Assembly (NCBI GenBank): GCA_034620365.1
Contig: JAQGEQ010000192.1
Location: forward strand, 1-64,000
Direction: 5' to 3'
DNA: 64,000 nucleotides
Origin: Pegea sp. RAD2-039
Taxonomy: Eukaryota; Chordata; Thaliacea; Salpida; Salpidae
Below are positions 1 to 61,391 of the stretch, one piece after another. The notes under the pieces were generated by a model. The model was given only the letters and a program-made list of their open reading frames with translations, searched no databases and was not told the DNA's origin. Positions within the stretch are counted from its first letter, which is position 1; each line of letters starts with the position of its first letter. The position numbers and the translations under genes were made by a program.

Positions 1-3000
1 TGTTTACAGCAATGACCGCTCAAGGACAAGTTAGTTGTGACGATATTACTTTCTTAGTATCGACCAAACTTTAGTGAAAATTGTAATGAAACGTTTTATT
101 TGAAAATTTTTTAATTCTATAATTTAGTAAAATTTTCAAACCGACTTTTAAAATAGTTGAAATAATTTCTAAGTTTGTAATAATTTAATTTTAGGTCATT
201 CTTCGTTCCGACAATCTCGCATATAATCCCAAAGCTGAGATTCAAGTTGATGATACTGCTCAAAGCTTAATGATAAGAGTTGCAGGATACAGTACTAGTA
301 GTGTAACATCAATCGAGTTACAGCAAAGGCTCCGAGGTAAAATAAACTCATAATTCAATGAGAAAAAGAAAAGAACTTTAAAATATCAAATCTGTTTTAG
401 ATGGAAGTTTGATTGATGTTACAGCTGAAGTATTGATCGATGCAAATGGTTTGCATCTTTTGAAATTAGATGATCTAAGCGGCTGGGGTGGAAGTACACT
501 GATGTTAGAGTTTGGTGGAGACCTTGCTGCAGGATACAGGTAAATACTCTACGTGATTACCTGAAAACAAATATGAAATGTAAATAATGATTAATACCAG
601 CCTCGAGGTCACAGCAGCAAGTGTATTTGGTGCAAATTTGAAAATGGTAAGCGTTGATGACTCTGGTAACTTCAAATATCCTCGACAATTTGTTGCTGGT
701 TTGTTGGAAATATTATCAACTAATTTTTATTCTAATAACAACTTTTGCAGGGACAACCGCCTTTGTTGAAGGTGTTTTGTTTGGTGATACTACAGCAACT
801 AGTATCAATAAAATCCAGTTACAAGCACAAGATGGAAGAATTTTGAAAGAATCAGTAGTCAATTATTGTGATGGAGAATACTTTACAAGCAATGTCTTTG
901 AGATACCAGTTGAACCATTCTTCCTTGTAAGTCACACGTTTTAATACTTTGAATACTATTTAGGAAAACTCTTGAACTTTAATAAAACCTTTCAAGCATA
1001 AAACAAAACATTAAATCGTTTTTTTCAAAATATTTCAAAATCAAATTCAAAATCTTTAACTTTAAGCTATCGACGAAGAAATTTTTAAAATAATAATTAA
1101 AAATAAGAAAGAGAAAAATGAAAACAAATTGTTAAATTAAATGATAAAATCTCTTATTATTTTAAATAAGTTTTACAAAGCTTTGTATTTTTCGATTCTT
1201 ATCTTATTGCAAATTAGTTTTGTATAAAAAGTCTTTGACTAAATAACTAGTTAATAATAAATTGATTTAACTAGGAGCTGTTATTATTTGAGATATGAAT
1301 AAAAACCAATTTTTTATAAAGATTTTAGTGGGTCTGACTAACGAAGGAAACGCATTTAGAAGAAGTGATGCCTGTTCAGTTATACCATTGCTTGAAAATA
1401 TCGGAGTAATTCAAATTGACCGTGTACCAATCGACGCCGGAAGCTCTGCCACGGTAATTAATGGCGTTTGAAGAAAACATTCAGTTTCTTGAAAGAAATA
1501 TCGTTTACTCTATACTCAGGTACCTGTTACTTTCTTCAATCGAGGAACAGAAGTAAGATTTTTCACTTTTGATGCCACTGACCAAATGGAATATTTGACT
1601 TCTTTTAATCCAAAAACGTAAATATTTGTCTCAAAATTAAACCAAAAGTTTTATTAACTGTTACCAGGGCATCAATTGGAGAGGATGAAACTTCAACAAT
1701 AAACCTTGAGTTTACTGTACCAGCAGATACCAGTGACGGTGTAGTAAGCAGAGTAACTGTCACAGGGACACTATCAAACCAGTTTGTTTACACAACTTTT
1801 AATATCCTCGTCATAAACACTAAAGTTCTTCAGGTATCAAATAAAATCGATTCTGATTTCTATTTTTTCTTATTTTAATCTTCAATTTATCCCAGTGTCC
1901 TCCTCTTATTAATGGCCCCGGGGCAAATATCAAATGTACCGATGGGTTCAACGATGGCTCTGTATGTCAGTTAGTTTGTGACCCTCAATTTGTAGTCGCG
2001 GAAGCAACAACAGCTCAGTGTAATGGAGAGACCTGGACAACAACTGATTTGAGATGTAACCAAGTCGGTGAGTTGGAATAATTGTAATGTTTTTTTTGTA
2101 AATCAGAATTTCGAGTCATTTAGCGGCTAAACTTGAAATATTTCACAGAAAATCAGGAATGCCAATTGTCTGGTGACCCACATTACATAACATTTGATGG
2201 TAATTATTTTGATTTTATGGGCACTTGTGTATACACAATGGTGGATACGTTATTTGATAATGTGACTGAAACTGGAGATAAGATTCCGTTCACCATTCAG
2301 GTATCTTCTTAGCAGTTACAAGATCCTATAATCTGAATAGATTTATCTTAAAATATTCTATTTCAGGTTGAGAACGAACACCGATTTGGAATTACTTTTG
2401 TCTCTTGGTTCAAAAGAGCTTTCTTCAAAATTGATGGAGTCACTTACACTTTCCTGAAAAACAGGCAAATCTTGGTAATACTTGAAACTGGTTTACTTTC
2501 GTTTATACGATTCCCTGTATAGTAGCAAAAGATGTGATCATGAGACAATTGTAGTGACCAGACCTTATCTTACTTTACACTTTATAACTTTATAGGTGGA
2601 TGGAGTATATGTAGAAATTCCTTATTCAGCCGAGAGACTTGGCCTTAAAATTGAGATTAGTGGTTCAAATGTTGTCCTGACAATCCGTAAAATTGGTTTA
2701 GAGATAAGATACAATGGAAATGCTTTGTTTGTAGTACAATTGGCTGGGTCATATGCGAATAAAGTTGAAGGTGACTTTTCAGATAACTTCTTTTAAGAAA
2801 TAATTTAATCAAATTTTATTTCAAATAAGGTCTTTGTGGAAACTTTGATGGTAACCCGAATAACGACCTGGCATTGCCTGATGGAACACCTGTAAATGCA
2901 AATGAGTTTGGAAGTTTCTATAAGTCTGGAGGAGCTGCTGAGAGGTAAGGAATCTCTTCAACTTGATGTTGATCTATTTTATTTTCAATTTCTGAGAAAT

Positions 3001-6000
3001 ATTAATGATTTAGTGGAAAAAGCCTGATCTTAACGATGTTCTTTCAGATGTCAGAATGGTGGACCTACAGCAGGAGGTTGTAAAGATAGAGATGCTTATA
3101 CGTCTCTTTGTGGTCTTATAGAGGGTGAATGCTTTAAGAAATGCCGTTTGGTTATTCCAGTTCCAAATATTTTACAGGTTAATAATCAGTTTACTAAATA
3201 TGTTTTGAGACATAACAAAAATGCTCTTTTTATAGAATTGTATTTTTGATATGTGTGCAACTGAAGGTTCTTTAGAAGCATTAGATCAAGCAATAGATAT
3301 TTTTGCTCAAGAATGTCAGCTGGCTGGCATTTCTATTTGCGACTGGAGAGATGAAACTGGAACAGGTATGCTGTATACATCATTGCAACTATCGTTGTTT
3401 TAATTCAAATCTATTATTTGAAATATAATTTTAAAAAATTGACACTGATAATTATCGTTTTATAATCAAACTTATCTTCTTATAGTTCCTGAATGTCCTG
3501 TGAATGCTCATTATGAAAACGAAGGTGTGGCTTGCCCTGATACCTGCTTAAATCCAAAACAATCTACTCGATGTATAAAACCAAAAGTGGCTGGTAAACA
3601 TTTTGCTTGAATTAATTTCTTTAATTATTAATTTTTCTACTCATCTATCTTTTAAATGTTCTTTTAAACAACTATTACTTCTCATAAATTTAGATTGAGA
3701 CAAACATTCTGTAGATACCTTTTACTTTTATTTATCAGAAGACAACTTGAAACGTCTTATTGACTTTTTTATAACATTAAACAGGATGTGTTTGTGACGA
3801 CGGTTTTGTGCTTTCTGGCTTGAACTGCATACCTGTTACAGAATGTGGTTGCTTCAACAACGGGGTTTACTACAAGGTATGATAAATGATACTTCCTTTT
3901 GTATGACAAATCAAACAGCAATGTTTATCTCTTAAACTGTTTTTAAAAATCTTTTTATATTTTATTGAAATGAAGAATGGGGCGAAGTTTCTGACACGAA
4001 CTTGTGACAAAAGTTGTGAATGTCAAGGAGGTGAATTGAAATGTGAAGCATTTGCTTGTCCAGAAGGTCAGGAGTGTAAGGTTCCCGAAGATACCCAGCA
4101 GCCCCAATGTGTGCCTCAACGTAGTTTGATGCATTTAAAGTCATCTAAAAGGTGCTGAAATTTGTTTTTTACAGAAATGAATCAGTGTCAAGGAACAGGA
4201 GACCCTCACTTTACCACTTTTGATGGAACTTATTACGATTTCCAAGGAATCTGCAAATACACTTTCGTCAAAACTACCGATGACTCAATTGCTTGGAGCA
4301 AGAAGTTCAACATCTCTATTGAAAACGAAAATCTTCGTGGAAATACTTTAGTTTCATTTCTACGTGAAGCCACTTTCTCGTTCCACCATGACCGTTGGAA
4401 TAGAACAGTCACAATTGTTTTCAACAACAACGACGCTGGAGTACCTCAAGTAACGGTAAGAGACCTTCACTGAAGTATTTCTGATGTCACAACTGACATT
4501 TTAACTGTTTCATCAGGCATATGGGCTGTATCCTGAAGGTCTTGTAGCAAATGTCCTTGGTTATGAAGATGATTATCTATCGATACAAGATACTGGCAAT
4601 AGTTTCACTTTAAAGTATGGTTATGTAACAGTTTTTTACCGACCATATGAAATCATAACGACTGTTCCATCGTTTTATAAGAACAAGGTTACTATTCAGT
4701 TTTCCAGTTAATAGAAAACTACAGAAATGTTTTTAATAAAAATCATCTAATAGCTTGCTGGAATGTGTGGAAGTTATAACAGTGACCCTCTTGATGACTT
4801 CACAAACTCAACAGGCGGTGTTGAATCGGATATCAATAAGTTTGTTGAGAGCTTTATTGTAGATGGTAGTTGCCTTGAGCCAGCTCCAGAACCAATTGAA
4901 CCTTGCACTGACCTACAGAAAGAAGAATGGTAAAAGATCCTTTTATTATCAAGCTATCTGACATTAAACACAACAAACTTGCTTTAAAATCTATAAATCT
5001 TTAAGATAAGTGATTCGGTAAATGATTTAAAAGTCTCTTACATTAACAGGAGCGCCAACAATTATTGTGGAGTGATTACAGATTTAGATGGAATTTTCGG
5101 CAAGTGTTTAGAGATATTAGATCTAACTCAAGACTTCAACAACTGCTTATACGATCTTTGTCAGTTTGACGGTGACCCAGAAATTTTATCTAGAGTGAGT
5201 TGTTGATATCAGTAACAAGAAAAAGAAAATAAAAAACGTTTTTCAGCAACTAAGCGAAGTAACACGAAAATGTAATAATATTGGTCCTGTTGTTGAATGT
5301 GATTGGCGAGAAAAAGTTTCTACTATTGCTGGTGTATTCAAATGTCCACTAAATTCTACATATTCAGGTTGTGCATCAGGTTGTCCGAACACGTGTGTTA
5401 ATCCAACTGCTGAATCTAGGTAAATACTCATTTAATTCATCGCTCTTTAGCTTCTATATTATAATTTGCAAGATTAAAATCAAAAGCTTATTTCTTACAG
5501 TGTAAGCTAATTAGTTTGTAATTTGTAGATGTGCTGCACCTGAAAAAGAAGGATGTATTTGCAATAGCGGTTATATTCTTCACGCTGGGGAATGTATAAA
5601 AGAAGAAGAGTGTGGTTGTCTCACACCTGAGTATGGATATGTTAAAAAAGGTAACTAAACAATTTTGCAAGATAATTTTCATTAAAATTTTATATCCTTG
5701 CAACTAAGTTCAATTGTTTGTAACTTTATTCATCGATATCGAATAATTGAAGTAACTTGATTGAGTTTTCTGCAAAATATTTAGATTTTGTTGGATTAAG
5801 CCCTGATTGTAGTGAAAGATGTGTTTGTTACGGACGAGGTAAATATGTCTGTGAAAAGCATGAATGTGTTGGAAAGGAAGAATGTTTTAATGTTGGAATA
5901 ACAAGAAAATGTATTATCCCAGTAAGCCAAGCGTATTCAGCCAAGTATTTTTATTAATTTTAAATTATGTTGAAACATTTAGAGTGAATTTTGTATCGTA

Positions 6001-9000
6001 AATGGAGGGTATGTTCGTCAATTTGATGGAAATCATTTTATTTTCAACACCAAGGGCAGACATACATTTGTAAAGTTTGTCAAACATTTAATTGATTTAT
6101 AAAAAACTTTTTAATAATCACAAATAAATTTAAAAAAATTTGTTATATTTAAAACTATATTTAGAAAAATAGATGAAAAATAATTTATGAAATCAAATAT
6201 TTAGATCTACCAACCCTCTTAAATTACTTGGTGCTCCTGAATTTAAAATCGATCTTGAAGGAGTCGACAACGACAAATTAGGAGTCTTTTCATTCGATGT
6301 GATAGCCTCATATAGCATTGCGAGGAGTTACCTTGATATTAAGATCTCAGCTAAAGGCCAGATTGTGACTGTAAGTTGATTCATTTCTGTAAGCTTCAAA
6401 ATTCTGATTTGTCTGAACTATAGGTTAACGATCGAACTGTAATGCCGGGAAGTGAATATGATGACGGTTTTGGTGGCTCCGTACAAGTCTTTCATCAAGG
6501 TTTTTTCGTCACAGTTGTTATTAACTCGGATATAATTATTCGAAGTGGCTTTGAACGCGGGTAAGATGATGATGACTGAAAGTTGATCCAGAAAACTTTA
6601 CTTTTATTTCATAGAGTTATCATACAATTATCTGGGAATTCATTCCAGTCTGTTGATGGAATCTGCGGAAGTTGGGACGATGACAAAGATAATGATGTAT
6701 TTGAAAACTACACTGAATTCATAAATCTCCATTACATCCCCTCAATCTTTGACGAGTAACTTTCTAAAGTCGAAGTATCTTGCTCTTCTAACTTTCTTTT
6801 ATTTTAGTAAAAAACCATTCTGTTCAAAGAATGATCGGTTTGAAGAGTTTTTGGTTGATTCACTGATAAGTGGCGCGATTTCAAGCGCAAAGTCTGGATT
6901 GGATGTTTGTGAATCTGTAGTTTCTTCAACAACATATAAACTTGCTCTTGCTGAGATTCTAAGTTGCAACAAAGAAGGATTTTTGGAGATTTTCGAATCA
7001 AGTTTTATCAATTATTGGATGCAATGTATCTTTTTCTCAGAGGTCAAGCCAGTGATACCTGTTCGAGAAAATATTGGCATCAGTTAGTACAAAAATCATT
7101 ATTTGATTCTAATCAAACAGTAAAAGATTTTTTAATCAAAAAGTTTAATTAAACAATTTCTACAATCATAGTATTTAGAAAAAGCTTTAGTTTGTCCTTT
7201 TATTTATTATTTCTTTAATTCAAATTGACGATTTATTCCAAGCTTTTATACAAGTAATCTTTTACCTGATATTTATTTCAACTAAATCTTTAATATTCTT
7301 ATTTCAATCATCTTACTGAACTGAATTTATAATCAAATTCTTTTTTCAATCAACAGAATACAACTGCCCCTTGAACTCGCATTATTCCGTTGTTGTTCCA
7401 TATTGTGTAAAGACATGCTCTGATCGAGACGCTTCGAGATGTGAAGCAATTTTAGGAATGGAAGCAGTTGCTGGAATTGAAGGTGTGTACTTGTGATTTG
7501 TTCAACTAACTCATACACCATGTTTTCAGGATGTGTGTGCGATGAAGGATTTATCTGGAGTGGTTATCATTGTGTTCTTGAAGAATATTGTGGATGTCTT
7601 GATAAAGAAACTGGAACTTACTACAACGTTAGTTTACGAACTTTTATCAAATTTTTGTAATGATTTTTTGAAATGTATTTGTAGCATGGAGACTGTTACA
7701 CAAAGGATGATTGTTCTAGAAAATGTCAATGTCTGAGTGGCACGTGGTCGTGCGAAGATAACAAATGTTATAAAAATCAAGTATGTGTGGAGAATGGTGG
7801 AGTCAGCAGCTGCTTGCCTAAAAGTAACTAACAAATTTTTTGTTATTATTTTAAAAAATATCTTTGAAGATTAATTGTATGTTAAAACCACAAACTCATT
7901 CTTTCTTGATCCGTTTTATTTGTTCAATTCTTTCGCGAATTTAGAGGTCAACGAAACTCTTGTTTTAATTCAGACAAATGTTTGCGGCCAGACAACGGGG
8001 GTTGTGCTCAAATCTGTAATTGGAATGAAGAAACCGATGAAGTCACTTGTGATTGTTATTTCTTTACACTAAGACCTGTAGATCCAAAAACTTGCAGAAT
8101 CATACTTAATCGTGAGTAATCTCAACAATCTTTTATCTTTTCATCTAATATTATTTGACTCAGCTATTCCTACTGAACGGCTGGTTGCTAGAAAAACTAT
8201 CAAAGAAGTAGCTGAAGGACAGTGTGTTACTGAATTGAACAAATGGAGAGATGACTACAAGTCATGGAAAGCTGATTTTAACAAGTGGCAGTCATCAGTA
8301 AAACCTTGTAGTAAGGAAACTGGTAAATGTTCAGCTGCTCCTCGATGGGCATTCGAAGATGAGTTACTTGGATATAGTGACGGTCAGAAAAACAGTTTTT
8401 ATTTCAATCTAGTCTGTAGTAGATAAATTATCTTTTGTATATTTTAATTAACAATTTAATTGACCTTCAATTCGATAGTTTCTTCTAAATTAGTCCTTCC
8501 CTCAAATTATATCAACTCAGACGTTACATCTTAATAAGCCATATCACTAGGCACCTTATTCAGTTCAATATTGTTACTCATACCCCACAATTAGTACATG
8601 AAACCAGCTGCCATCAGACATTGTCATGTCAGAATCACTCGCGTTGTTCAAGCAGAAGTTGAAGCGTTATAATATTGCCAACATTGTCATTTCTAAATTG
8701 TAATTTTTCCCCTTCCTTATATTATTAACATTCTATGTAATTGTTCAATGTTATATGCTTAGAGGACTACTGAAATACCATGCGTTACATCTTTTGCTTT
8801 CTATATTTTTGACTAAATATACGTTTTCTGTTAGAATGTGTTTTTGAAAGGTGCTCTCTTCAGGCACCCTCCTTCGCATTTATTTTCATAAATAATAAAT
8901 ATATAAAGTAACATTAGATGTATTATTATCAATATGATTTTTATATAAACTAATTCTAATTGTAACACAGGTGGAAGACATTGTAGAGCTTATTTTACTC

Positions 9001-9342
9001 GCTGGTTTAATACTGACAAGCCTGATGGCTGTGGTGATGATGAAAGCATTGAACGAATTCGCGATCTCTATGCAGAAGAGATATGCGAGCAAATAATTTT
9101 AGTAGAAAGTCGTTTAGTTTCACATAAGTAAGTTTTCAGAACTTTTTTTTTCTTTTAATTAAACAAATTTCAAGAAATTAATTTAATTTTATCACAGAGA
9201 TGCTGAACTTGATATAAAAATTCGAACTAATAACGTCAAAGAAGGTTTTATCTGTGATAATTCTGATCAAAATGCCGGAATCAGATGTCCAGACTATGAA
9301 GTTCGCTTCGTGTGTGTACAATGCGCCTTTTATTTAGAATAA
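1..9342 (+). CDS. Secreted vWA-CCP-(vWD-C8-TIL)x3-EGF-WxxW protein, left copy (5' part outside window)
   Basis: A large secreted, cysteine-rich adhesive protein gene of 37 exons in the window. The first is partial (1-56, in frame with the right copy) and the last ends at TAA 9,340-9,342. All exons from 195 on join in phase with GT-AG splice sites and give an open frame of 5,352 nt. Exons before the sushi domain are 195-336, 401-539, 601-698, 751-926, 1322-1453, 1520-1617 and 1668-1833; the modules after it are listed separately. Expected family role is extracellular: vWD modules usually multimerise or form gels, and vWA binds ligands. The exact function is unknown. The C-terminus differs from the right copy by an 18-nt insertion after VRFVC. 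The signal peptide and vWA exons of this copy lie left of the window. Because this copy is open throughout, it is the better candidate for a functional gene. Confidence 0.88.
1896..2067 (+). other. Sushi/CCP-like exon (left copy)
   Basis: A single phase-matched exon encodes a compact cysteine module beginning [14 protein letters not shown] and ending with a Trp-containing stretch and a final Cys ([10 protein letters not shown]). This is the usual CCP (sushi) pattern of four Cys plus a Trp before the last one. It separates the N-terminal vWA part from the vWD array. The right copy has the same exon with one silent change noted. Confidence 0.75.
2149..4120 (+). other. vWD-C8-TIL module 1 plus VWC-like exon (left copy)
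   Basis: Exons 2149-2300, 2367-2474, 2596-2770 and 2830-2944 encode a vWD domain with the [11 protein letters not shown] entry motif and a [13 protein letters not shown] calcium-loop-like end. Exons 3048-3177 and 3236-3365 encode the C8 part. Exons 3486-3593 and 3785-3876 encode a TIL domain (starts ECPVNAHY, ends [12 protein letters not shown]). Exon 3976-4120 encodes a VWC-like cysteine segment with [10 protein letters not shown]. The right copy lacks one residue here: left has Ala-Glu-Arg-Leu near 2,635 and right has Ala-Glu-Leu. Confidence 0.85.
4175..5921 (+). other. vWD-C8-TIL module 2 plus VWC-like exon (left copy)
   Basis: Exons 4175-4455, 4517-4687 and 4754-4929 encode a vWD domain ([12 protein letters not shown] entry, [14 protein letters not shown] end). 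Exons 5050-5194 and 5247-5419 carry the C8 region and the start of TIL, exon 5529-5650 finishes TIL ([14 protein letters not shown]), and 5785-5921 is a VWC-like segment ([15 protein letters not shown]). The left copy is open. The right copy is shifted by one base within the mirror of 5050-5194. Exon 5247-5419 has a cluster of six replacement changes between copies. Confidence 0.85.
5983..7823 (+). other. vWD-C8-TIL module 3 plus VWC-like exon (left copy)
   Basis: Exons 5983-6074, 6205-6370, 6424-6560 and 6615-6755 encode a third vWD domain. It lacks the usual GDPH entry (it reads [13 protein letters not shown]) but keeps the [13 protein letters not shown] end. Exon 6808-7082 sits in the C8 position but has only a few Cys, so C8 is degenerate or unrecognised. 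Exons 7357-7482 and 7530-7627 encode a TIL domain (starts YNCPLNSHY, ends [13 protein letters not shown]) and 7685-7823 a VWC-like segment. The donor of 5983-6074 (GTTTGT) and that of 6808-7082 (GTTAGT) are non-consensus and were chosen to keep phase. Confidence 0.75.
7974..8418 (+). other. EGF-like exon and linker (left copy)
   Basis: Exon 7974-8111 encodes a six-cysteine EGF-like unit ([17 protein letters not shown], then CDCYF, then TCR). Exon 8164-8418 encodes a charged linker of about 85 residues with Trp and Cys ([17 protein letters not shown]). I do not recognise this linker as a known domain. The intron that follows (8419-8970) contains the tail of a CR1-like LINE, present at the same place in both arms. 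Confidence 0.75.
8457..8908 (+). mobile_element. CR1-like LINE 3' fragment in intron of left vWD gene
   Basis: The fragment covers the last part of ORF2 (decayed), the 3' UTR and the terminal hairpin region GGTGCTCTCTTCAGGCACC, followed by a short AT-rich tail. It is 5'-truncated. It lies in the sense orientation of the host intron and is matched base for base with few changes at 52,489-52,935, so insertion preceded the arm duplication. Confidence 0.85.
8971..9342 (+). other. WxxW (mucin-2 type) C-terminal domain (left copy)
   Basis: Exons 8971-9127 and 9198-9342 encode a domain with the WxxW-family pattern: [14 protein letters not shown] and GDDESI near the start, and [15 protein letters not shown] at the end. 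In this family the domain normally closes with a CxDYEVRFxC-like end. The left copy continues for seven more residues after that Cys (VQCAFYLE, stop). The right copy has VRFLC followed by Val-Glu and stop. Left has GGRHC where right has GGRMC, a change of three adjacent bases. Confidence 0.8.
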
Positions 9343-12300
9343 TTACTTTGAGTTACTCCAGGAATACATTTAACTATATTTTCATCTTCTACTTTAATTT
9401 TAATTACTCTTATATCTTCAAGTGTCTTTTCTTATATCAAAACCAAATACTAATTGATTTGGTCTACTCCATGAGATGGATTTATGTATTAAAAAGTGTT
9501 CTCCGTCTACTTTTACTTTAAAATAATTTCTACTCTAATAAAGTTCATGAATAGCATTAAAAATGTTCATTCTTTTTAGTAGTTTATCTACTGAGTGTCT
9601 GTTTAGCCAGTAAATTTTTTGTTTTATTCTTAAGATATTTTAATTTTACAAAAGTTGATTTAATGCAAGTCATTAAATCATCAAGTCTTTAAGTGTCTCT
9701 TCTTATCTCAAAACCAAATCTAAACAAATACTATTTGATGGAAACCTCAAAAATTGCCTACAAAACAAAGAACATAAAAGGTCAAATTGTTGTGAGTCAT
9801 GACCACAAAATACAGTTTGATGGTTGACTTAGCTTCAGGAAACGTTTTAAAATCTTTAATTAACATGAAGTGATGAAATGATTTAAAGATCATCTTTTTT
9901 AAAAGCTTAAGAAATATTAAAATTTAGAATAATAGATACAAACAAGTTTTATTAAAAACAAAAGTAATAATAAAACTAAAAACGTTACTTTTGAGGGTTT
10001 GGTAAAACTGTCAGTGATGAATTTTGTTTTTTTTACTTAATTTTACAAAAGTTGATTTAATGCAAGTCATTCTATTGTATCTCTTTTGTATAGAAGTAAC
10101 ATTTAGAATAAATTTAACTCAAATATCTAGTCGAATAAAAAGCTTATTTCATATTACTTTCAATCTCTTAAGCCAAGGAGTAAGCTAGCAAAAGAAAAAG
10201 TAATTAAAATAAATCTTTTTTGCAAATAGGATTCAGTTGAATGATTTTAAAATCCCTGAAAAACAGTTATAATATAAAATATCTCATGATTCTTGAAGCA
10301 GACATAAGCCTAGCATATCAGGCATTTTTAACTATTTTGTAAGTATATCATTAAATTATTTGAAATCTTTCAAGAAGCTTCGAGATAAATTTATTTTTGA
10401 TGCTTTAAATTTTGAAATATAACTTCACTAAATAGTGAGCAATGAAACTCTTAACAAGAAAACACCACAAAAGATAAAACATTACAACTAAATATTTTAA
10501 GAACACTTAGAAAGTTAGTAGCTTGTCAATAAGGTAACTACAGTTTAAAATGTTTTTTTAGATTACATCACTTTTCCTTTAAAAATTACTATGAAAATTG
10601 TAATAATCTTGTTAACAAATTTCTTTCTTTTATATTTTTTGTAATTCCTAATTATCCTGTACTTATAAAGTGCTTCAATTCTATTGTTAATAATTTTCTA
10701 CTTTGATATTTGAAACTTTTATTTTCTCAAAGTACGATTCGCTTCAAGAGCTGTATAATTTGTTGCCATGCATGAAATAATTAAAATAGATACTTAACCT
10801 TTGACATTTTTACCTCCTCAGAACATTTAAATCTAATTAAATCTATCAATTTCAATTAACATTCCAAACACATCAACACATGAATGATGGCTGCAGTGAA
10901 ACAATACATTCATTTACATGTGCGTGTTGCAACTACTTATTACTTAATAAATGGAAGTTTTCAAATTCTTTCTATTTATCTTTTAGTTTAAATTTCAAAG
11001 TTAGATGCAAAACCTCTCCCACAAGCTCAGATAATTATGATAAAAAATGCTTTTGTACAACTTTTGCAACAACATCAGTTTGTTGGTTATCAGAATGCAT
11101 CAGCTCCATTCAAGGTGCAGACCTGTGAACTGGAATACAAATTATTTACAAACATTTATCTATAAATTATTTGTTTATTTTTATAAACTTATGATAAGAA
11201 AAAGAAACTGTAGGTTACCTTCAGTTATATCAAAATTAAAATCAAACAACACAATTCAATTATCTAAGAATCTTTTAATCTTTCATTGTTTAAATATTAG
11301 AAGTTTGTTTTAATATTAAAAAATTTAGAATATCAGTTGATTTGAATCGACAATGAATAAAAGTAGTAACAGGTGAAAACTGTAATTAATTCATCTTACA
11401 ATTTACCACCAAGGGTTTAACAGGTTTGTAAATTTGATAAATTATCTTTTGCATTTTTTCTCATATAGTTTATAATTTAGTACAAAGCCAAACTATTTGG
11501 AAAATCTCTTTAAGCTTATTTTTTTAAAGGAATTTGATTTTGGATTAAATGTAAATTTGAAGATTTTAAATTAGCAAAGGTGGTTAATTTTTTTTATCAT
11601 TTTTTCAAACATTACCGATTTTGTTTTTCAAAGAGTTTTGTAATATTTTGAAACTGTCAATCAAAAAAAATTCTGGTAATCGTTTTTTATATTCTGCTGT
11701 TGCGAAATTTTTCAAGTGATGCAGAACACCAATAACTTCTGAAAGTTTCTATAAAAAGTTACAAAATCTGGCCACTTAAATATCTTTCTAAAAAAGATGA
11801 TATAAACTTTTTTGAAATCAATTTAATATCGTTTTTAATGATAGAAATATTTTGTTTAAATTAAATGAGTTTTTGGTCACAACGTACAAATTAGATTAAG
11901 TAATAACTCTTCAAATAATAAGTAACTGATTTCAAATATAGAATTTTTAAACAATGTGGACAATTTTTATTACAATCTGTTGTTTTTAAAAGATGTAAAT
12001 TAAGATAAAAAATGTATTTCAAACTAATTCAAAAGTAAAATTGTTTTAATGTTTTTAAAAAATATGTTTTTTTAAATAATCATTTTTAAACGCAGAAGCA
12101 ATATTATTAAATTATTTAATTGCATTTTAAGTTTTCTTGGAGCTTTCAGTTGTGTTTTCCAAGGAAGCCTCTTCAATATCAATTATATAAGAGACTTGCA
12201 TTTTGCCAACTTTTTAGAACTTAATCTTTTTTAGAGTACTGACTTACGGTTTCAATCCAGACGATAAAAGATAGATTATGATAAGCTGATAAATAAGTCT

Positions 12301-15853: not shown

Positions 15854-15869
15854 AAAGACAATTCTTCTA

Positions 15870-21546: not shown

Positions 21547-21599
21547 GATTCTAGACTTATAAGAAGAATTAAATAATTGATAACTCAATTAAATTAAAT

Positions 21600-46580: not shown

Positions 46581-47009
46581 TCTATAGTATCTAAATTGAA
46601 GAAGCTGAGACGATATTTATAACTATCATATTTAATATTAAGTTTCCTGCATACTAATCTTGTAAATGTGGCCAGAACAGATTCGATTTTTTTGATATCA
46701 CTAACTTGATATGGCATCCATGCACTGACATTGTATTCAAGAATTGGACGTACGTACAATTTGAAAAAATTGATAAAAAAGCATGGGTCCTTAGAATTAA
46801 AGGTCTTTATAATAAGGTAGACATGATTGATTGATTTTCCAAAGATTTTAGAAACATAATTGCGCCATTTAAAGTCAGATGATAGAGTAATGCCAAGGTC
46901 TAGGACCGAAGATACTCGTTGAATAATAAATCCATTGATGGAATTTTGGTACAAAGAGTTTATAGCTGGTTTACGGGAAAAGTTATAAGTTCAGACTTTG
47001 TTGGCTGGA

Positions 47010-49090
47010 TTCTAAGCTGCCAATTCGTAGACCAGTTTTCTACAGTGTGCAATGCAGTTTGAAGGGTAACAAGATAATAACTTGATGTCATCTGCATACA
47101 CAAACACTCTGACATCATCTACTGCTACTAGTCTTCTGATGAGGTCTTCGACGAAAATTAAAAAGAGAAAGGGACCCAGAACTCTGAGGAACAACACTAG
47201 TGATTTGACTAGAAGTACATAAAGATCTTTCAATACGAGTTTGTTGGGTTCTACCTGATAATTAATCTTCAATCCACTGTAAGATAAAGCTGTTGATTTT
47301 TTAGATTTTCAATACAGTAACGAGCTTAGTGTGTGGAAAAGAATCAAACGCTGTAGCAAAATTGAGATATATAATGCCACAAGGAGTAATACTTTTATAA
47401 TGGGCTGTAAGCTCATTAAGAAAAGTGAGATGTTGAGTCAGAGAAGATATTCGTTTCACAAAGCCATGTTGGACATCAGATATTAGATGGTGCTCCATCA
47501 AATGACTGGTCATATGATTTTAAGTGATATGTTCTTGAGTTTTGCAGATAACTGAGGTCAGCGAAATTGGTCTGTAGTTAAGTACAGTGTTTCTGGGACC
47601 CTTTTTATGAATTGAAGTAATAATAGCTTTCTTCCAAATTTTTGGAACTCTTTTTCGCTTCAGAGTCATGTTAAAGAGTAGCGATAAAGAGAAAGTAGCT
47701 TTTCTTAAAAACAAAGCTGGGATCTGATCTGGGGTGCTGAAAACTGATGATTTTAAAGAAGAAATAGCTTTAGATACCATATCGACCGTTATGTCAAAAT
47801 CTACCACCTCAGAGACATTTGTAAGAATGTCGGAGTAGGAGAGAGAAGGAGTATTGCCATCATCAGTTATAAAAACGCTATTAAATTGATTATTTAGCAA
47901 CTCAGCTTTATTCTGTGGTTCCATCACAAGCTGGTCGCTGTTATCAATTAGGGGAGTTATTTGAGATCTCGCCTTAAGCTTGCGATTTGTGAAACCAAAG
48001 AACGTTTTTTTGCTAGGTGAAGATAAAACTGCACTTTCTCTTCCCAAATGGAAATTAGAAATAGATTTCTTGTAAACTATACAAAGATCTTTGTACAGAG
48101 ATTTGATGGAAGGGTCTGTTTTAGTTTGTTTGTATAGAAGGTTTTTTAAATGTTGTAAATTCTTTAAATTTTTGGGTAAATGTGGTTTTTTGTTGATTCT
48201 ATAAAAAGATATGAATTTTTCGATTGACTCTTTAACGATGTTAGTAAGCCTTGAGTAAATAGTATTGATGTCTTCGGAAAAGTTGAAAACATAAATCCAG
48301 TCAACATCTGGTAGAAACTTGTTAATGCCATTATAATTTACTCAGTAAAAATTCCTTTTTCTTGAAGTTTTAACGTTCATAAAAAAATTTTGATGGAGCT
48401 TGAATTCAATCATATTGTGATCACACGTCAAAGTAAAAGGTTCTTTCTGATCAACGTAGATAATGTTCTCGGGTTTTGATGTGATAAGAAGATCCAAAGT
48501 ATTACCACTAACTTGGGTCGGAAAAGTAACCATCTGAGATAGATTATTGGCATTGAGGAAGCTTACAAAGGCATGACTTAGAAAGGGTGAATTAGTATTA
48601 TCGCTATCCAAGTTAAACGATTTTCCAATAAATGCTAATTTTACTAAAATCCCCCAAAATATATAACTCAGGACACACAGCACTCTTCAAAACATTTAAT
48701 AAGGCCTTAACACAGTAACCTTATCATTAGTTTTAGAGGGTGGTAGATAGGTACATATAAAACGAGAAAATTTGGACTTTGAGTAATGAAAATCAAAAGC
48801 GATAATCTCAAACCCTGGACAGTTAACGGGATTGATCTGAATTCTAGAGATCATGGTTGCAAGCGATGTTTTGTAGATTAAGCAAACACCGCCGCCTCTA
48901 TCATACAGTCTGTCACAACGCAAAACACAAAAAAGATTACCGTCAACCAGAAAAGAATCAGGATAAAACGGTTTCAACCAAGTTTCAGTAATAAAAACAA
49001 ATGTGAAATCTTGGGAATGCAAAAGAGCTTTCAATTGAAGTTTTTGTTGATAATCGACCGTGCGTTGAAGAACATACCTAATGTGATAGA
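47010..49090 (-). pseudogene. LINE copy D ORF2 (endonuclease-RT), broken
   Basis: It covers endonuclease and RT in at least five frames. Breaks relative to copy B: one base lost at the MFFNARSIINKN/LQLKALL joint (about 49,035), a deletion in the endonuclease near 48,690 ahead of the GDFN motif, and several frameshifts in the RT (about 47,515, 47,290 and 47,200). The YADD box is intact at about 47,090. Confidence 0.85.
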
Positions 49091-49206
49091 AGAATTGTCT
49101 TTTTGACGCTTGTGAGATTTGATGATGGGCTTCTGTAAATTGATATCTTGGTTATTAACAATTGTGTCCGAAGAGAGTTTGAAAAAAGAAGATGTGGGTC
49201 CAGTGA

Positions 49207-49840
49207 TTATGGCACTTCCTTTTTTTGAAAAAAAACCTTGACAATTCTCAAAGCCCATGGTGGACCTCGAACTTTGTATTTGAAATCAGTTGGTTGTTCC
49301 TTCTGATTTCGGTCATACGCCTCTTTTAGAAGACGCTTATTTTCTAAGCGATCATCTTCACACATATCATGTGCTACTCTAATGCACTCTAATTTTTTCT
49401 CAAGCTTTAGCTTATACAGCTTGGCAAGAAACTTGCGTTTGTTCCAATTTTCCTGAAAGGATACTTTCAGCGGTCTTTGATGATCTGAGCTTTTTGCTCC
49501 AAGTCTAGTCAGTGATACCTTTGGAACGTCCACAAAATCAAGGCTTTGAAAGCACATTTGATTAAAAAACTTACTGTCATCATCTTTATCAGTCTCAGAG
49601 ACATTTAAAATGATGACATTTTTTTCTCTGTCCTCACGGTCTAAAGTGAGTTTGTTTGTGCGTGTCGGTGACCTTCTTGGCATGAAGCTGCACCATACTA
49701 GCATTTTCGTCGGAACCGGGATCACCGACCACCGAGGCCCATGTGACTTGTTTCTTTGTAGAGGCATTCAGTTCGTACATTGATTTAGACAAACTAGAAG
49801 TTTTCTCATCAATCTTGGCAACTTCTGTTGCAATTTCCAA
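49207..49840 (-). pseudogene. LINE copy D ORF1 (two overlapping frames)
   Basis: The upstream frame (49,840-49,634) carries a coiled coil and KQVTWASVVGDPGSDENAS. The downstream frame continues as REDREKNVIILNVSETDK. The switch lies within CAAACTCACTTTAGACCGTG and is base-identical to that in copy B at about 15,320. Confidence 0.75.
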
Positions 49841-51310: not shown

Positions 51311-54300
51311 AAAACTTGTTTGTATCTATTATTCTAAATTTTAATATCTCTTAAGCTTTAAAAAAAGATGATCTTTAAATTATTTCATCACTTCATGTTA
51401 ATTAAAGATTTTAAAACGTTTCCTGAAGCTAAGTCAAACATCAAACTGTATTTTGTGGTCATGACTCACAACAATTTGACCTTTTATGTTCTTTGTTTTG
51501 TAGGCAATTTTTGAGGTTTCCATCAAATAGTATTTGTTTAGATTATGGTTTCGAGATAAGAAAAGACACTTGAAGATATAAGAGTAACAAAATTTAAGTA
51601 GAAGATGAACTGTAGTTAAATGTATTCTTGGAGTAACTCAAAGTAATTATTCTACATGAAAGAAGAAGTTAAGAAAGAGTTAAATTAAATAAGTGCTTGT
51701 ATACAAAAGAGATACAATAGATGCACTGATACAAAAGAATGACTTGCATTAAATCAACTTTTGTAAAATTAAAATATCTTAAGAATAAAACAAAAAATTT
51801 ACTGGCTAAACAGACACTCAGTAGATAAACTACTAAAAAGAATGAACATTTTTAATGCTTTTCATAAAATTTATTAGAGTATAAATTATTTTAAAGTAAA
51901 AGTAGACGGAGAACACTTTTTAATAATTAAATCCATCTCATGGAGTAGACCAAATCAATTAGTATTTGGTTTTGATATAAGAAAAGACACTTGAAGATAT
52001 AAGAGTAATTAAAATTAAAGTAGAAGATGAAAATATAGTTAAATGTATTCCTAGATTAACTCAAAGTAATTATTCTACACACAAGAAGCGAACTTCATAG
52101 TCTGGACATCTGATTCCAGCATTTTGATCAGAATTATCACAGATAAAACCTTCTTTGACGTTATTAGTTCGAATTTTTATATCAAGTTCAGCATCTCTGT
52201 GATAAAATTGAATTAATTTCTTGAAATTTGTTTAATTAAAAGAAAAAAAAAGTTCTGAAAACTTACTTATGTGAAACTAAACGACTTTCTACTAAAATTA
52301 TTTGCTCGCATATCTCTTCTGCATAGAGATCGCGAATTCGTTCAATGCTTTCATCATCACCACAGCCATCAGGCTTGTCAGTATTAAACCAGCGAGTAAA
52401 ATAAGCTCTACACATTCTTCCACCTGTGTTACAATTAGAATTAGTTTATATAAAAATCAAATTGATAATAATACATCTAATGTTACTTTATATATTTATT
52501 ATTTATGAAAATAAATGCGAAGGAGGGTGCCTGAAGAGAGCACCTCTCAAAAACACATTCTAACAGAAAACGTATATTTAGTCAAAAATATAGAAAGCAA
52601 AAGATGTAACGCATGGTATTTCAGTAGTCCTCTAAGCATATGACAGTGAACAATTACATAGAATGTTAATAATATAAAAAAAGGGGAAAAATTACAGTTT
52701 AGAAATGGAAATGTTGGCAATATTATAACGCTTCAACTTCTGCTTGAACAACGCGAGTGATTCTGACATGACAATGTCTGATGGCAGCTGGTTTCATGTA
52801 CTAATTGTGGGGTATGAGTAACAATATTGAACTGAATAAGGTGCCAAGTGATATGGCTTATTAAGATGTAACGTCTGAGTTGATATAATTTGAGGGAAGG
52901 ACTAATTTAGAAGAAACTATCGAATTGAAGGTCAATTAAATTGTTAATTAAAATATACAAAAGATAATTTATCTACTACAGACTAGATTGAAATAAAAAT
53001 CGTTTTTCTGACCGTCACTATATCCAAGTAACTCATCTTCGAATGCCCATCGAGGAGCAGCTGAACATTTACCAGTTTCCTTACTACAAGTTTTTACTGA
53101 TGACTGCCACTTGTTAAAATCAGCTTTCCATGACTTGTAGTCATCTCTCCATTTGTTCAATTCAGTAACACACTGTCCTTCAGCTACTTCTTTGATAGTT
53201 TTTCTAGCAACCAGCCGTTCAGTAGGAATAGCTGAGTCAAATAATATTAGATGAAAAGATAAAAGATTGTTGAGATTACTCACGATTAAGTATGATTCTG
53301 CAAGTTTTTGGATCTACAGGTCTTAGTGTAAAGAAATAACAATCACAAGTGACTTCATCGGTTTCTTCATTCCAATTACAGATTTGAGCACAACCCCCGT
53401 TGTCTGGCCGCATACATTTGTCTGAATTAAAACAAGAGTTTCGTTGACCTCTAAATTCGCGAAAGAATTGAACAAATAAAACGGATCAAGAAAGATTGAG
53501 TTTGTGCTTTTAACATACAATTAATCTTCAAAGATATTTTTTTAAATAATAACAAAATATTTGTTAGTTACTTTTAGGCAAGCAGCTGCTGACTCCACCT
53601 TTCTCCACACATACTTGATTTTTATAACATTTGTTATCTTCGCACGACCACGAGCCACTCAGACATTGACATTTTCTAGAACAATCATCCTTTGTGTAAC
53701 AGTCTCCATGCTACAAATACATTTCAAAAAATCATTACAAAAATTTGATAAAAGTTCGTAAACTAACGTTGTAGTAAGTTCCAGTTTCTTTATCAAGACA
53801 TCCACAATATTCTTCAAGAACACAATGATAACCACTCCAGATAAATCCTTCATCGCACACACATCCTGAAAACATGGTGTATGAGTTAGTTGAACAAATC
53901 ACAAGTACACACCTTCAATTCCAGCAACTGCTTCCATTCCTAAAATTGCTTCACATCTCGAAGCGTCTCGATCAGAGCATGTCTTTACACAATATGGAAC
54001 AACAACGGAATAATGCGAGTTCAAGGGGCAGTTGTATTCTGTTGATTGAAAAAAGAATTTGATTATAAATTCAGTTCAGTAAGATGATTGAAATAAGAAT
54101 ATTAAAGATTTAGTTGAAATAAATATCAGGTAAAAGATTACTTGTATAAAAGCTTGGAATAAATAGTCAATTTGAATTAAAGAAATAATAAATAAAAAGA
54201 CAAACTAAAGCTTTTTCTAAATACTATGATTGTAGAAATTGTTTAATTAAACTTTTTGATTAAAAAATCTTTTACTGTTTGATTAGAATCAAATAATGAT

Positions 54301-57300
54301 TTTTGTACTAACTGATGCCAATATTTTCTCGAACAGGTATCACTGGCTTGACCTCTGAGAAAAAGATACATTGCATCCAATAATTGATAAAACTTGATTC
54401 GAAAATCTCCAAAAATCCTTCTTTGTTGCAATTTAGAATCTCAGCAAGAGCAAGTTTATATGTTGTTGAAGAAACTACAGATTCACAAACATCCAATCCA
54501 GACTTTGCGCTTGAAATCGCGCCACTTATCAGTGAATCAACCAAAAACTCTTCAAACCGATCATTCTTTGAACAGAATGGTTCTTTACTAAAATAAAAGA
54601 AAGTTAGAAGAGCAGGATACTTCGACTTTAGAAAGTTACTCGTCAAAGATTGAGGGGATGTAATGGAGATTTATGAATTCAGTGTAGTCTTCAAATACAT
54701 CATTATCTTTGTCATCGTCCCAACTTCCGCAGATTCCATCAACAGACTGGAATGAATTCCCAGATAATTGTATGATAACTCTATGAAATAAAAGTAAAGT
54801 TTTTTGGATCAACTTTCAGTCATCATCATCTTACCCGCGTTCAAAGCCACTTCGAATAATTATATCCGAGTTAATAACAACTGTGACGAAAAAACCTTGA
54901 TGAAAGACTTGTACGGAGCCACCAAAACCGTCATCATATTCACTTCCCGGCATTACAGTTCGATCGTTAACCTATAGTTCAGACAAATCAGAATTTTGAA
55001 GCTTACAGAAATGAATCAACTTACAGTCACAATCTGGCCTTTAGCTGAGATCTTAATATCAAGGTAACTCCTCGCAATGCTATATGAGGCTATCACATCG
55101 AATGAAAAGACTCCTAATTTGTCGTTGTCGACTCTTTCAAGATCGATTTTAAATTCAGGAGCACCAAGTAATTCAAGAGGGTTGGTAGATCTAAATATTT
55201 GATTTCATAAATTATTTTTCATCTATTTTTCTAAATATAGTTTTAAATATAACAAATTTTTTTAAATTTATTTGTGATTATTAAAAAGTTTTTTATAAAT
55301 CAATTAAATGTTTGACAAACTTTACAAATGTATGTCTGCCCTTGGTGTTGAAAATAAAATGATTTCCATCAAATTGACGAACATACCCTCCATTTACGAT
55401 ACACAATTCACTCTAAATGTTTCAACATAATTTAAAATTAATAAAAATACTTGGCTGAATACGCTTGGCTTACTGGGATAATACATTTTCTTGTTATTCC
55501 AACATTAAAACATTCTTCCTTTCCAACACACTCATGCTTTTCACAGACATATTTACCTCGTCCGTAACAAACACATCTTTCACTACAATCAGGGCTTAAT
55601 CCAACAAAATCTAAACATTTTGCAGAAAACTCAATCAAGTTACTTCAATTATTCGATATCGATGAATAAAGTTACAAACAATTAAACTTAGTTGCAAGGA
55701 TATAAAATTTTAATGAAAATTATCTTGCAAAACTGTTTAGTTACCTTTTTTAACATATCCATACTCAGGTGTGAGGCAACCACACTCTTCTTCTTTTATA
55801 CATTCCCCAGCGTGAAGAATATAACCGCTATTGCAAATACATCCTTCTTTTTCAGGTGCAGCACATCTACAAATTACAAACTAATTAGCTTGCACTGTAA
55901 GAAATAAGCTTTTGATTTTAATCTTGCAAATTATAATATAGAAGCTAAAGAGCGATGAATTAAATGAGTATTTACCTAGATTCAGCAGTTGGATTAACAC
56001 ACGTGTTCGGACAACCTGATGCACAACCTGAATATGTAGAATGTGGTGGACATTTGAATACACCAGCAATAGCAGGAACTTTTGCTCGCCAATCACATTC
56101 AACAACAGGATCAATATTATTACATTTTCGTGTTACTTCGCTTAGTTGCTGAAAAACGTTTTTTATTTTCTTTTTCTTCTTACTGATATCAACAACTCAC
56201 TCTAGATAAAATTTCTGGGTCACCGTTAAACTGACAAAGATCGTATAAGCAGTTGTTGAAGTCTTGAGTTAGATCTAATTCTCTAAACACTTGCCGAAAA
56301 TTCCATCTAAATCTGTAATCACTCCACAATAATTGTTGGCGCTCCTGTTAATGTAAGAGACTTTTAAATCATTTACCGAATCACTTATCTTAAAGATTTA
56401 TAGATTTTAAAGCAAGTTTGTTGTGTTTAATGTCAGATAGCTTGATAATAAAAGGATCTTTCACCATTTTTCTTTCTGTAGGTCAGTGCAAGGTTCAATT
56501 GGTTCTGGAGCTGACTCAAGGCAACCACCATCTACAATAAAGCTCTCAACAAACTTATTGATATCCGATTCAACACCGCCTGTTGAGTTTGTGAAGTCAT
56601 CAAGAGGGTCACTGTTATAACTTCCACACATTCCAGCAAGCTGTTAGATGATTTTTATTAAAAACATTTCTGTAGTTTTCTATTAACTGGAAAACTGAAT
56701 AGTAACCTTGTTCTTATAAAACGATGGAACAGTCGTTATGATATCATATGGTCGGTAAAAAACTGTTACATAACCATACTTTAAAGTGAAACTATTGCCA
56801 GTATCTTGTATCGATAGATAATCATCTTCATAACCAAGGACATTTGCTACAAGACCTTCAGGATACAGGCCATATGCCTGATGAAACAGTTAAAATGTCA
56901 GTTGTGACATCAGAAATACTTCAGTGAAGGTCTCTTACCGTTACTTGAGGTACTCCAGCGTCGTTGTTGTTGAAAACAATTGTGACTGTTCTATTCCAAC
57001 GGTCATGGTGGAACGAGAAAGTGGCTTCACGTAGAAATGAAACTAAAGTATTTCCGTGAAGATTTTCGTTTTCAATAGAGATGCTGAACTTCTTGCTCCA
57101 AGCAATTGAGTCATCGGTAGTTTTGACGAAAGTGTATTTGCAGATTCCTTGGAAATCGTAATAAGTTCCATCAAAAGTGGTAAAGTGAGGGTCTCCTGTT
57201 CCTTGACACTGATTCATTTCTGTAAAAAACAAATTTCAGCACCTTTTAGATGACTTTAAATGCCTCAAACTACCTTGAGGCACACATTGGGGCTGCTGGG

Positions 57301-60300
57301 TATCTTCGGGAACCTTACACTCCTGACCTTCTGGACAAGCAAATGCTTCACATTTCAATTCACCTCCTTGACATTCACAACTTTTGTCACAAGTTCGTGT
57401 CAGAAACTTCGCCCCATTCTTCATTTCAATAAAATATAAAAAGATTTTTAAAAACAGTTTAAGAGATAAACATTGCTGTTTGATTTGTCATACAAAAGGA
57501 AGTATCATTTATCATACCTTGTAGTAAACCCCGTTGTTGAAGCAACCACATTCTGTAACAGGTATGCAGTTCAAGCCAGAAAGCACAAAACCGTCGTCAC
57601 AAACACATCCTGTTTAATGTTATAAAAAAGTCAATAAGACGTTTCAAGTTGTCTTCTGATAAATAAAAGTAAAAGGTATCTACAGAATGTTTGTCTCAAT
57701 CTAAATTTATGAGAAGTAATAGTTGTTTAAAAGAACATTTAAAAGATAGATGAGTAGAAAAATTAATAATTAAAGAAATTAATTCAAGCAAAATGTTTAC
57801 CAGCCACTTTTGGTTTTATACATCGAGTAGATTGTTTTGGATTTAAGCAGGTATCAGGGCAAGCCACACCTTCGTTTTCATAATGAGCATTCACAGGACA
57901 TTCAGGAACTATAAGAAGATAAGTTTGATTATAAAACGATAATTATCAGTGTCAATTTTTTAAAATTATATTTCAAATAATAGATTTTAATTAAAACAAC
58001 GATAGTTGCAATGATGTATACAGCATACCTGTTCCAGTTTCATCTCTCCAGTCGCAAATAGAAATGCCAGCCAGCTGACATTCTTGAGCAAAAATATCTA
58101 TTGCTTGATCTAATGCTTCTAAAGAACCTTCAGTTGCACACATATCAAAAATACAATTCTATAAAAAGAGCATTTTTGTTATGTCTCAAAACATATTTAG
58201 TAAACTGATTATTAACCTGTAAAATATTTGGAACTGGAATAACCAAACGGCATTTCTTAAAGCATTCACCCTCTATAAGACCACAAAGAGACGTATAAGC
58301 ATCTAAATCTTTACAACCTCCTGCTGTAGGTCCACCATTCTGACATCTGAAAGAACATCGTTAAGATCAGGCTTTTTCCACTAAATCATTAATATTTCTC
58401 AGAAATTGAAAATAAAATAGATCAACATCAAGTTGAAGAGATTCCTTACCTCTCAGCAGCTCCTCCAGACTTATAGAAACTTCCAAACTCATTTGCATTT
58501 ACAGGTGTTCCATCAGGCAATGCCAGGTCGTTATTCGGGTTACCATCAAAGTTTCCACAAAGACCTTATTTGAAATAAAATTTGATTAAATTATTTCTTA
58601 AAAGAAGTTATCTGAAAAGTCACCTTCAACTTTATTCGCATATGACCCAGCCAATTGTACTACAAACAAAGCATTTCCATTGTATCTTATCTCTAAACCA
58701 ATTTTACGGATTGTCAGGACAACATTTGAACCACTAATCTCAATTTTAAGGCCAAGTTCGGCTGAATAAGGAATTTCTACATATACTCCATCCACCTATA
58801 AAGTTATAAAGTGTAAAGTAAGATAAGGTCTGGTCACTACAATTGTCTCATGATCACATCTTTTGCTACTATACAGGGAATCGTATAAACGAAAGTAAAC
58901 CAGTTTCAAGTATTACCAAGATTTGCCTGTTTTTCAGGAAAGTGTAAGTGACTCCATCAATTTTAAAGAAAGCTCTTTTGAACCAAGAGACTAAAGTATT
59001 TCCAAATCGGTGTTCGTTCTCAACCTGAAATAGAATATTTTAAGATAAATCTATTCAGACTATAGGATCTTGTAACTGCAAAAAAGATACCTGAATGGTG
59101 AACGGAATCTTATCTCCAGTTTCAGTCACATTATCAAATAATGTATCCACCATTGTGTATACACAAGTGCCCATAAAATCAAAATAATTACCATCAAATG
59201 TTATGTAATGTGGGTCACCAGACAATTGGCATTCCTGATTTTCTGTGAAATATTTCAAGTTTAGCCGCTAAATGACTCGAAATTCTGATTTACAAAAAAA
59301 CATTACAATTATTCCAACTCACCGACTTGGTTACATCTCAAATCAGTTGTTGTCCAGGTCTCTCCATTACACTGAGCTGTTGTTGCTTCCGCGACTACAA
59401 ATTGAGGGTCACAAACTAACTGACATACAGAGCCATCGTTGAACCCATCGGTACATTTGATATTTGCCCCAGGGCCATTAATAAGAGGAGGACACTGGGA
59501 TAAATTGAAGATTAAAATAAGAAAAAATAGAAATCAGAATCGATTGTATTTGATACCTGAAGAACTTTAGTGTTTCTGACGAGGATATTAAAAGTTGTGT
59601 AAACAAACTGGTTTGAAAGTGTCCCTGTGACAGTTACTCTGCTTACTACACCGTCACTGGTACCTGCTGGTACAGTAAACTCAAGGTTTATTGTTGAAGT
59701 TTCATCCTCTCCAATTGATGCCCTGGTAAATGTTAATAAAACTTTTGGTTTAATTTTGAAACAAATATTTACGTTTTTGGATTAAAAGAAGTCAAATATT
59801 CCATTTGGTCAGTGGCATCAAAAGTGAAAAATCTTACTGCTGTTCCTCGATTGAAGAAAGTAACAGGTACCTGAGTATAGAGTAAACGATATCTCTTTCA
59901 AGAAACTGAATGTTTTCTTCAAACACCATTAATTACCGTGGCAGAACTTCCGTCTTCGACGATTATATCGACAACTTCATTTATTCCAATATTTTCAAGC
60001 AATGGTATAAGTAAACAGGCATCACTTCTTCTAAATGCGTTTCCTTCGTTAGTCAGACCCACTAAAATCTTTATAACAAATTGGTTTTTATTCATATCTC
60101 AAATAATAACAGCTCCTAGTTAAATCAATTTATTATTAACTAGTTATTTAGTCAAAGACTTTTTATACAAAACTAATTTGCAATAAGATAAGAATCGAAA
60201 AATACAAAGCTTTGTAAAACTTATTTAAAATAATAAGAGATTTTATCATTTAATTTAACAATTTGTTTTCATTTTTCTCTTTCTTATTTTTAATTATTAT

Positions 60301-61391
60301 TTTAAAAATTTCTTCGTCGATAGCTTAAAGTTAAAGATTTTGAATTTGATTTTGAAATATTTTGAAAAAAAAGCGATTTAATGTTTTGTTTTATGCTTGA
60401 AAGGTTTTATTAAAGTTCAAGAGTTTTCCTAAATAGTATTCAAAGTATTAAAACGTGTGACTTACAATGAAAAATCGTTCAACTGGTATCTCAAAGACAT
60501 TGCTTGTAAAGTATTCTCCATCACAATAATTGACTACTGATTCTGTCAAAATTCTTCCATCTTGTGCTTGTAACTGGATTTTATTGATACTAGTTGCTGT
60601 AGTATCACCAAACAAAACACCTTCAACAAAAGCGGTTGTCCCTGCAAAAGTTGTTATTAGAATAAAAATTAGTTGATAATATTTCCAACAAACCAGCAAC
60701 AAATTGTCGAGGATATTTGAAGTTACCAGAGTCATCAACGCTTACCATTTTCAAATTTGCACCAAATACACTTGCTGCTGTGACCTCGAGGCTGGTATTA
60801 ATCATTATTTACATTTCATATTTGTTTTCAGGTAATCATGTAGAGTATTTACCTGTATCCTGCAGCAAGGTCTCCACCAAACTCTAACATCAGTGTACTT
60901 CCACCCCAGCCGCTTAGATCATCTAATTTCAAAAGATACAAACCATTTGCATCGATCAATACTTCAGCTGTAACATCAATCAAACTTCCATCTAAAACAG
61001 ATTTGATATTTTAAAGTTCTTTTCTTTTTCTCATTGAATTATGAGTTTATTTTACCTCGGAGCCTTTGCTGTAACTCAATTGATGTTACACTACTAGTAC
61101 TGTATCCTGCAACTCTTATCATTAAGCTTTGAGCAGTATCATCAACTTGAATCTCAGCTTTGGGATTATATGCGAGATTGTCGGAACGAAGAATGACCTA
61201 AAATTAAATTATTACAAACTTAGAAATTATTTCAACTATTTTAAAAGTCGGTTTGAAAATTTTACTAAATTATAGAATTAAAAAATTTTCAAATAAAACG
61301 TTTCATTACAATTTTCACTAAAGTTTGGTCGATACTAAGAAAGTAATATCGTCACAACTAACTTGTCCTTGAGCTGTCATTGCTGTAAACA
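51311..61391 (-). repeat. Right arm of the ~10-kb inverted duplication
   Basis: Reverse-complement partner of 1-9,950. Sequence outside it (61,392-62,849) holds the first exons of the gene, whose left-hand partners would lie beyond the window. Near the inner end, a segment of about 120 bp is present twice in direct orientation (about 51,540-51,660 and 51,955-52,080). The left arm has one full and one partial copy of it. Confidence 0.95.

Follow-up and report, generated by a model that had tools for sequence, protein, structure and literature searches.

Probable gene conversion and three short islands of divergence in a duplicated gene for a predicted secreted VWA-VWD protein

Two copies of one gene are found in the 64,000-nucleotide stretch of DNA analysed in this work (referred to as the window). 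In a first-pass annotation it had been noted that these copies differ mainly by amino-acid changes and that their exons diverge more than their introns, which was taken to point to diversifying selection or to exon-directed conversion. This raises the question of whether the gene diversifies along its whole length or whether the excess of amino-acid changes has a different and more local origin. The pattern is largely real but was mainly misread, and the locus is better described as a duplicate pair, probably subject to gene conversion, in which three islands of divergence are present.

The two gene copies and the predicted protein

The window is the beginning of contig C3 (4.5 Mb) in an assembly of 105.7 Mb and 387 contigs, and the look of its genes and domains suggests an animal. 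Alignment of positions 1-9674 with positions 61391-51738 bore out that paralogous genes lie in inverted arms, which are 98.5% identical. Both arms are located on this single contig, with 42 kb between them. The following features were assigned to the two copies.

1..9342, forward strand: gene copy A, 3' part (the 37 exons of the first-pass annotation), with open frame and GT-AG introns
8451..8902, forward strand: intronic repeat remnant, present in A, B and a fragment on contig C9
9343..9950, forward strand: 3' flank of copy A, common to B
51311..52069, reverse strand: 3' flank of copy B, common to A
52070..62849, reverse strand: gene copy B, complete; hand-made 42-exon model based on alignment to A, GT-AG introns and Pfam matches on pieces
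62850..64000, reverse strand: 5' flank of copy B, within the duplicated unit, which extends past the window to C3:65696

The first exon of copy A in the window ends at position 56 and extends upstream onto contig C9. As the last 6302 bases of C9 match C3:1-6303 at 99.84%, the 5' part of copy A was located on C9, with its start codon at C9:250911, outside the window. This overlap of contig ends (6.3 kb, C9:252369-258670 versus C3:1-6303) contains 10 differences, so that C9 and C3 are likely to adjoin each other or to be haplotypic in part. The left edge of the finding is a contig edge rather than a biological border. A third copy (C9 246187-247762) is a 3' fragment only, which carries the last four exons. 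When 429 residues of the protein were used as query, the 39 matches consisted of these copies, the second VWD domain of the gene itself and distant VWD matches. Most of 38 scored genomic places were copies of the repeat remnant.

Exon boundaries in copy A were assigned manually, on the basis of GT-AG sites and open reading frames. Copy A is open by construction, and B was not consulted for frames except in the merging of exons 2 and 3. In an earlier model with 43 exons, one of the 42 introns of B was non-GT-AG. The intron in question, between exons 2 and 3 of that model, was rejected because its donor is lost in B by a change which is synonymous if coding; it disappeared upon merging, which resulted in the final model of 42 exons.

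The order of domains is a hydrophobic N-terminus, by eye a likely signal peptide, a helical segment, VWA_4, Ig_VWA7, a weak Sushi match, and then VWD, C8, TIL and TILa modules. Above the curated Pfam cut-offs, copy A matched VWD (3.5e-59, three stretches), C8 (3.2e-20, two), TIL (8.7e-17, three) and TILa (1.9e-13, three), with VWA_4 at 148.9 bits followed by Ig_VWA7 at 34 bits; a mucin family was absent from its Pfam match list. A search of solved structures with the first two VWD modules gave 33 matches, the closest being FCGBP (8rde first), MUC5AC, MUC5B, MUC2 and von Willebrand factor. With these proteins the gene shares its VWD, C8, TIL and TILa modules. It differs from FCGBP, the gel-forming mucins and von Willebrand factor by its N-terminal VWA_4 and Ig_VWA7 domains; no solved chain matched this N-terminal part at E<=0.1. 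VWA_4 is followed by Ig_VWA7 as in VWA7-type VWA proteins, from which the gene differs by fusion to VWD modules. The N-terminal VWA part presumably resembles hemicentin. Judged from its domains, the gene product appears to be a large, uncharacterised secreted VWA-Ig-VWD protein.

Other features were seen around the pair: (i) a zinc-finger block, duplicated in opposite orientation (C9:238434-245931 and C3:37368-45308) at about 95% identity, whose frame on C9 has about half the fingers (5 by eye versus 10 Pfam stretches in the C3 block); (ii) a non-LTR retroelement in two inverted copies (15219-18053 and 46952-49736) which are 92% identical, the first of which, the one searched, matched endonuclease and reverse transcriptase; (iii) a frame of 735 residues for a phosphate transporter (PHO4; 19378-21588), apparently intronless beside intron-rich genes.

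Divergence of exons, introns and flanks

Over the whole gene (42-exon model), 110 of 6478 exon sites and 45 of 4299 intron sites differed between A and B (Fisher p=0.006). This exon excess is due to exons 2 and 11; the latter contains a divergent patch that the first-pass annotation had set apart, and the former was not seen in it. Without these two exons, divergence was 1.05% in exons (61/5836) and in introns (45/4299) alike (Fisher p=1.0), i.e., introns diverge as much as exons, an outcome that had been named in advance as refuting the first interpretation. The same holds within the span of the 37 exons originally described, for which 70 differences at about 5335 exon sites and 41 at about 3977 intron sites were counted before a 2-nt shift of one exon edge: leaving out the 132-nt exon with the patch (18 changes), exons differed at 52 of about 5203 sites (1.00%) and introns at 1.03%. 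The initial reading of individual introns was accurate in that 57-194 and 337-400 have no changes, 540-600 has one and 7083-7356 has two; in 927-1321, with about three changes reported, one substitution and one 2-nt gap were found. Outside exons 2 and 11, exons are not more divergent than introns, contrary to what gene-wide diversifying selection would lead one to expect.

Most of the amino-acid differences listed previously were recovered, namely H/Y at 454, K/T at 846, P/R at 915, L/I at 924, E/A at 1550, D/G at 1726, I/R at 1813, H/M at 8979 and six within 5247-5419. The S/D difference at about 8393 falls into an intron of the present model, as the exon ends at 8382 and the changes are at 8394-8395. 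About 30 replacement and about eight silent codons had been counted outside the patch; the actual numbers are 36 and 12 of 1752 codons, or 49 and 14 of 1775 with the patch included. The observed share of replacements outside the patch (75%) compares with 72.6% expected as replacement/(replacement + silent) when the coding sequence is mutated with the spectrum of noncoding changes. A ratio of 3:1 is thus close to that of random change. Omega, determined by pairwise maximum likelihood with a purpose-written script, was 0.75 for all 2156 codons (p=0.22 against 1), 0.60 outside three divergent tracts described below (p=0.07), and 0.77 in the original span without its tract (p=0.43; no difference from 1). 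Gene-wide diversifying selection is therefore unsupported, and positive selection on the whole gene is rejected in view of omega together with the comparison of exons and introns.

The duplicated flanks show a different degree of divergence. Between B and C9, the distal 5' flank differed at 73 of 1349 positions (5.4%) and the proximal flank at 24 of 1436 (1.7%), and two aligned pieces of the 3' flanks of A and B differed at 8 of 332 and 7 of 265 positions (2.4-2.6%). For the nearby zinc-finger block duplicated between C9 and C3, the difference is about 5%. The contrast between introns (1.05%) and distal 5' flank is pronounced (Fisher p=7e-19), and the gene body is closer between the copies than the neighbouring flank that was duplicated with it. 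Since introns would be expected to be as old as the flanks if they were not homogenised, we infer that gene conversion caused their low divergence. Clustering of differences within the body outside the tracts was modest (variance/mean of 1.57, attained in 35 of 2000 permutations; longest difference-free gap of 714, attained in 93 of 2000), so that the evidence for conversion comes chiefly from the flank contrast. At four of the 10 sites where the C9 version of A differs from A (2090, 3406, 4337 and 4338), it has the state of B, which fits conversion yet could be an assembly blend. These comparisons comprise sequences of one assembly, which do not give conversion a direction. The suggestion of exon-directed conversion holds in modified form, in that conversion appears to homogenise exons and introns alike and three short stretches of coding sequence remain conspicuous. 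That the locus is a conversion-homogenised duplicate pair of a VWA-VWD gene in which three divergence islands persist has, in our estimate, about an even chance of being correct.

Three divergent tracts in exons 2 and 11

The tracts are the following.

62376..62403, reverse strand: tract 1 (exon 2), 10 substitutions in 28 nt, seven replacement codons
62275..62304, reverse strand: tract 2 (exon 2), 15 substitutions in 30 nt, six replacement and two silent codons
59946..60013, reverse strand: tract 3 in copy B (the patch of the first-pass annotation; exon 11 of 42), 18 substitutions in 68 nt, 13 replacement and two silent codons
1377..1444, forward strand: tract 3 in copy A, extending from immediately upstream into the beginning of the Ig_VWA7 match

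Tracts 1 and 2 lie in the 5' part of the gene, outside the span described first, and are denser than tract 3. Together the tracts, which were picked after inspection of the data, make up 126 of 10800 nt and hold 43 of the 155 differences of the gene body, with no indels. The densest 70-nt window contained 18 differences, compared to a maximum of nine in 2000 permutations. The adjacent introns are quiet, with 1/93 and 0/58 differences beside exon 2 and 1/395 and 2/66 beside exon 11. Short coding peaks next to quiet introns would correspond to a known pattern, that of divergence islands in converting duplicates. It is represented by exon 5 of the red and green opsins, where a peak of exon divergence adjoins quiet introns (PMC3924837), and by GOT1p1/GOT1p2 of Tigriopus (PMC3728101). 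The likeness consists in a mosaic of sharply divergent short exon stretches amid introns and most exons of low divergence, and the present gene differs by having three tracts, by raised silent divergence within them, and by being known from one assembly.

It is conceivable, though unlikely, that the pair is a young duplicate without conversion and that diversifying selection acted in place on three surface tracts forming a recognition interface. The 43 codons of the tracts include 26 with replacements and four with silent changes (P of at least 26/30 under the noncoding spectrum, 0.057), and frame and length are kept, so that diversifying selection within the tracts is suggested. Their omega of 1.53 does not differ significantly from 1 (p=0.39), which together with the post hoc choice of the tracts speaks against selection in place. 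Moreover, silent changes are raised about tenfold (4 of 43 codons versus 18 of 2077 elsewhere, p=0.0008; 43-exon model). Selection on amino acids in place does not suffice to produce this, and the tracts are thus taken to be old or imported sequence, possibly retained by selection for difference.

Structure prediction is compatible with an interface. Single-sequence models of an 88-residue segment of exon 2 (mean pLDDT 55.4 and 53.2) contain helices at residues 13-31 and 35-51 in B and 19-31 and 35-51 in A. Judged from helix limits rather than distances, and at this low pLDDT, tract 1 (residues 11-20) and tract 2 (44-53) would face each other where a helical hairpin opens. When one of these models was compared with PDB folds, 49 matches were obtained at E<=10 but none at E<=0.001.

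In searches of the assembly for a donor, no candidate was found among the best-scoring places for the tract 3 region of B (three places, each a copy of this gene) or for its exon 2 region (two places, both this gene). Distant paralogues on contigs C20 and C71 were rejected for polarising the changes, as their significant alignments start near the VWA domain and leave the tracts uncovered.

Frame breaks, constraint and history of the pair

Two interruptions of the reading frame bear on the integrity of the copies.

56280..56280, reverse strand: 1-nt deletion (frameshift) in B relative to A, opposite codon A:5114, outside a homopolymer
62463..62475, reverse strand, and the matching place on C9: frame break common to both copies, situated at a short stretch of A within exon 2

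The deletion, which the first-pass annotation does not mention, falls after the second VWD domain and would truncate B, and the common break, if real, would disrupt both copies near the N-terminus. Each could be an assembly error, a real mutation or unusual decoding. Taken together they cast doubt on function, and one or both copies might be decaying pseudogenes that accumulate changes neutrally, an explanation compatible with conversion. An overall omega that is not different from 1 agrees with decay, as do the 19 replacement and three silent codons on the 3' side of the B frameshift, compared to 24 and 17 on the 5' side outside the tracts (Fisher p=0.02; path-averaged counts, 43-exon model). 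Several observations make it a doubtful explanation nevertheless. With the tracts left out, omega 5' of the frameshift was 0.40 (p=0.005), as against 1.79 (p=0.32) on its 3' side. Purifying selection thus acts on the 5' part, while the last part of the gene is without detectable constraint. No stops (P=0.02) and no cysteine changes (P=0.03) occur among the point differences, in a rough calculation from which indel codons are excluded; an 18-bp length difference near the stop, where the last exons have different ends (9198-9342 in A, 52070-52196 in B), includes a cysteine codon. Pfam scores were alike across four pieces each of A and B, those of B being about as good as those of A (174.6 versus 168.2 bits for VWD, 32.6 versus 34 for Ig_VWA7). 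Finally, a three-way comparison of the 3' end with the C9 fragment yielded 17 changes unique to A, seven to B and 28 to the fragment. As A has more unique changes than B, the opposite of what decay of B predicts, the replacement excess at the 3' end does not simply reflect such decay, which is weakened as an explanation by the domain scores and the lack of stop and cysteine point changes as well.

Less probable still is that the arms are alleles or haplotypes of one locus, inverted by the assembler, with the tracts as old balanced alleles. In favour of this, copy A is found at the extreme ends of two contigs whose 6.3-kb overlap has B-like states at four of its 10 differences. Against it, a single contig carries both arms at a distance of 42 kb, the outer flanks differ, a third fragment exists, and divergence climbs toward both ends of the unit. 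These three alternatives are not fully exclusive and are in part compatible with each other.

Under the preferred reading, that of a converting duplicate pair with divergence islands, the locus, which holds copies A and B and the third, 3'-only fragment, would have been duplicated, rearranged and partly inverted. Interlocus gene conversion would hold the gene body, introns as well as exons, at about 1%, while the outer 5' flank stays at 5-7%. Of the three coding tracts, two belong to the helical segment near the N-terminus and the third borders the Ig-like domain; they may have escaped homogenisation or have been imported from an older divergent copy. Both their silent and their replacement divergence far exceeds that of the sequence around them, with reading frame and length preserved, and elsewhere the gene evolves at or under the neutral amino-acid rate. 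Selection for difference may be what maintains the islands.

A threefold excess of replacements next to quiet introns invites the conclusion of positive selection, yet neutral change combined with conversion would be expected to produce roughly the same picture. Correction of this tempting misreading narrows the gene-wide claim to 126 bases. More speculatively, and with rather low probability, the tracts are the specificity surface of a secreted recognition protein, such that twin loci exchange all but their specificity determinants and selection keeps two distinct specificities within an inverted-repeat locus that is homogenised elsewhere. If selection does hold the tracts apart against conversion, they mark a functional surface of this uncharacterised secreted protein.
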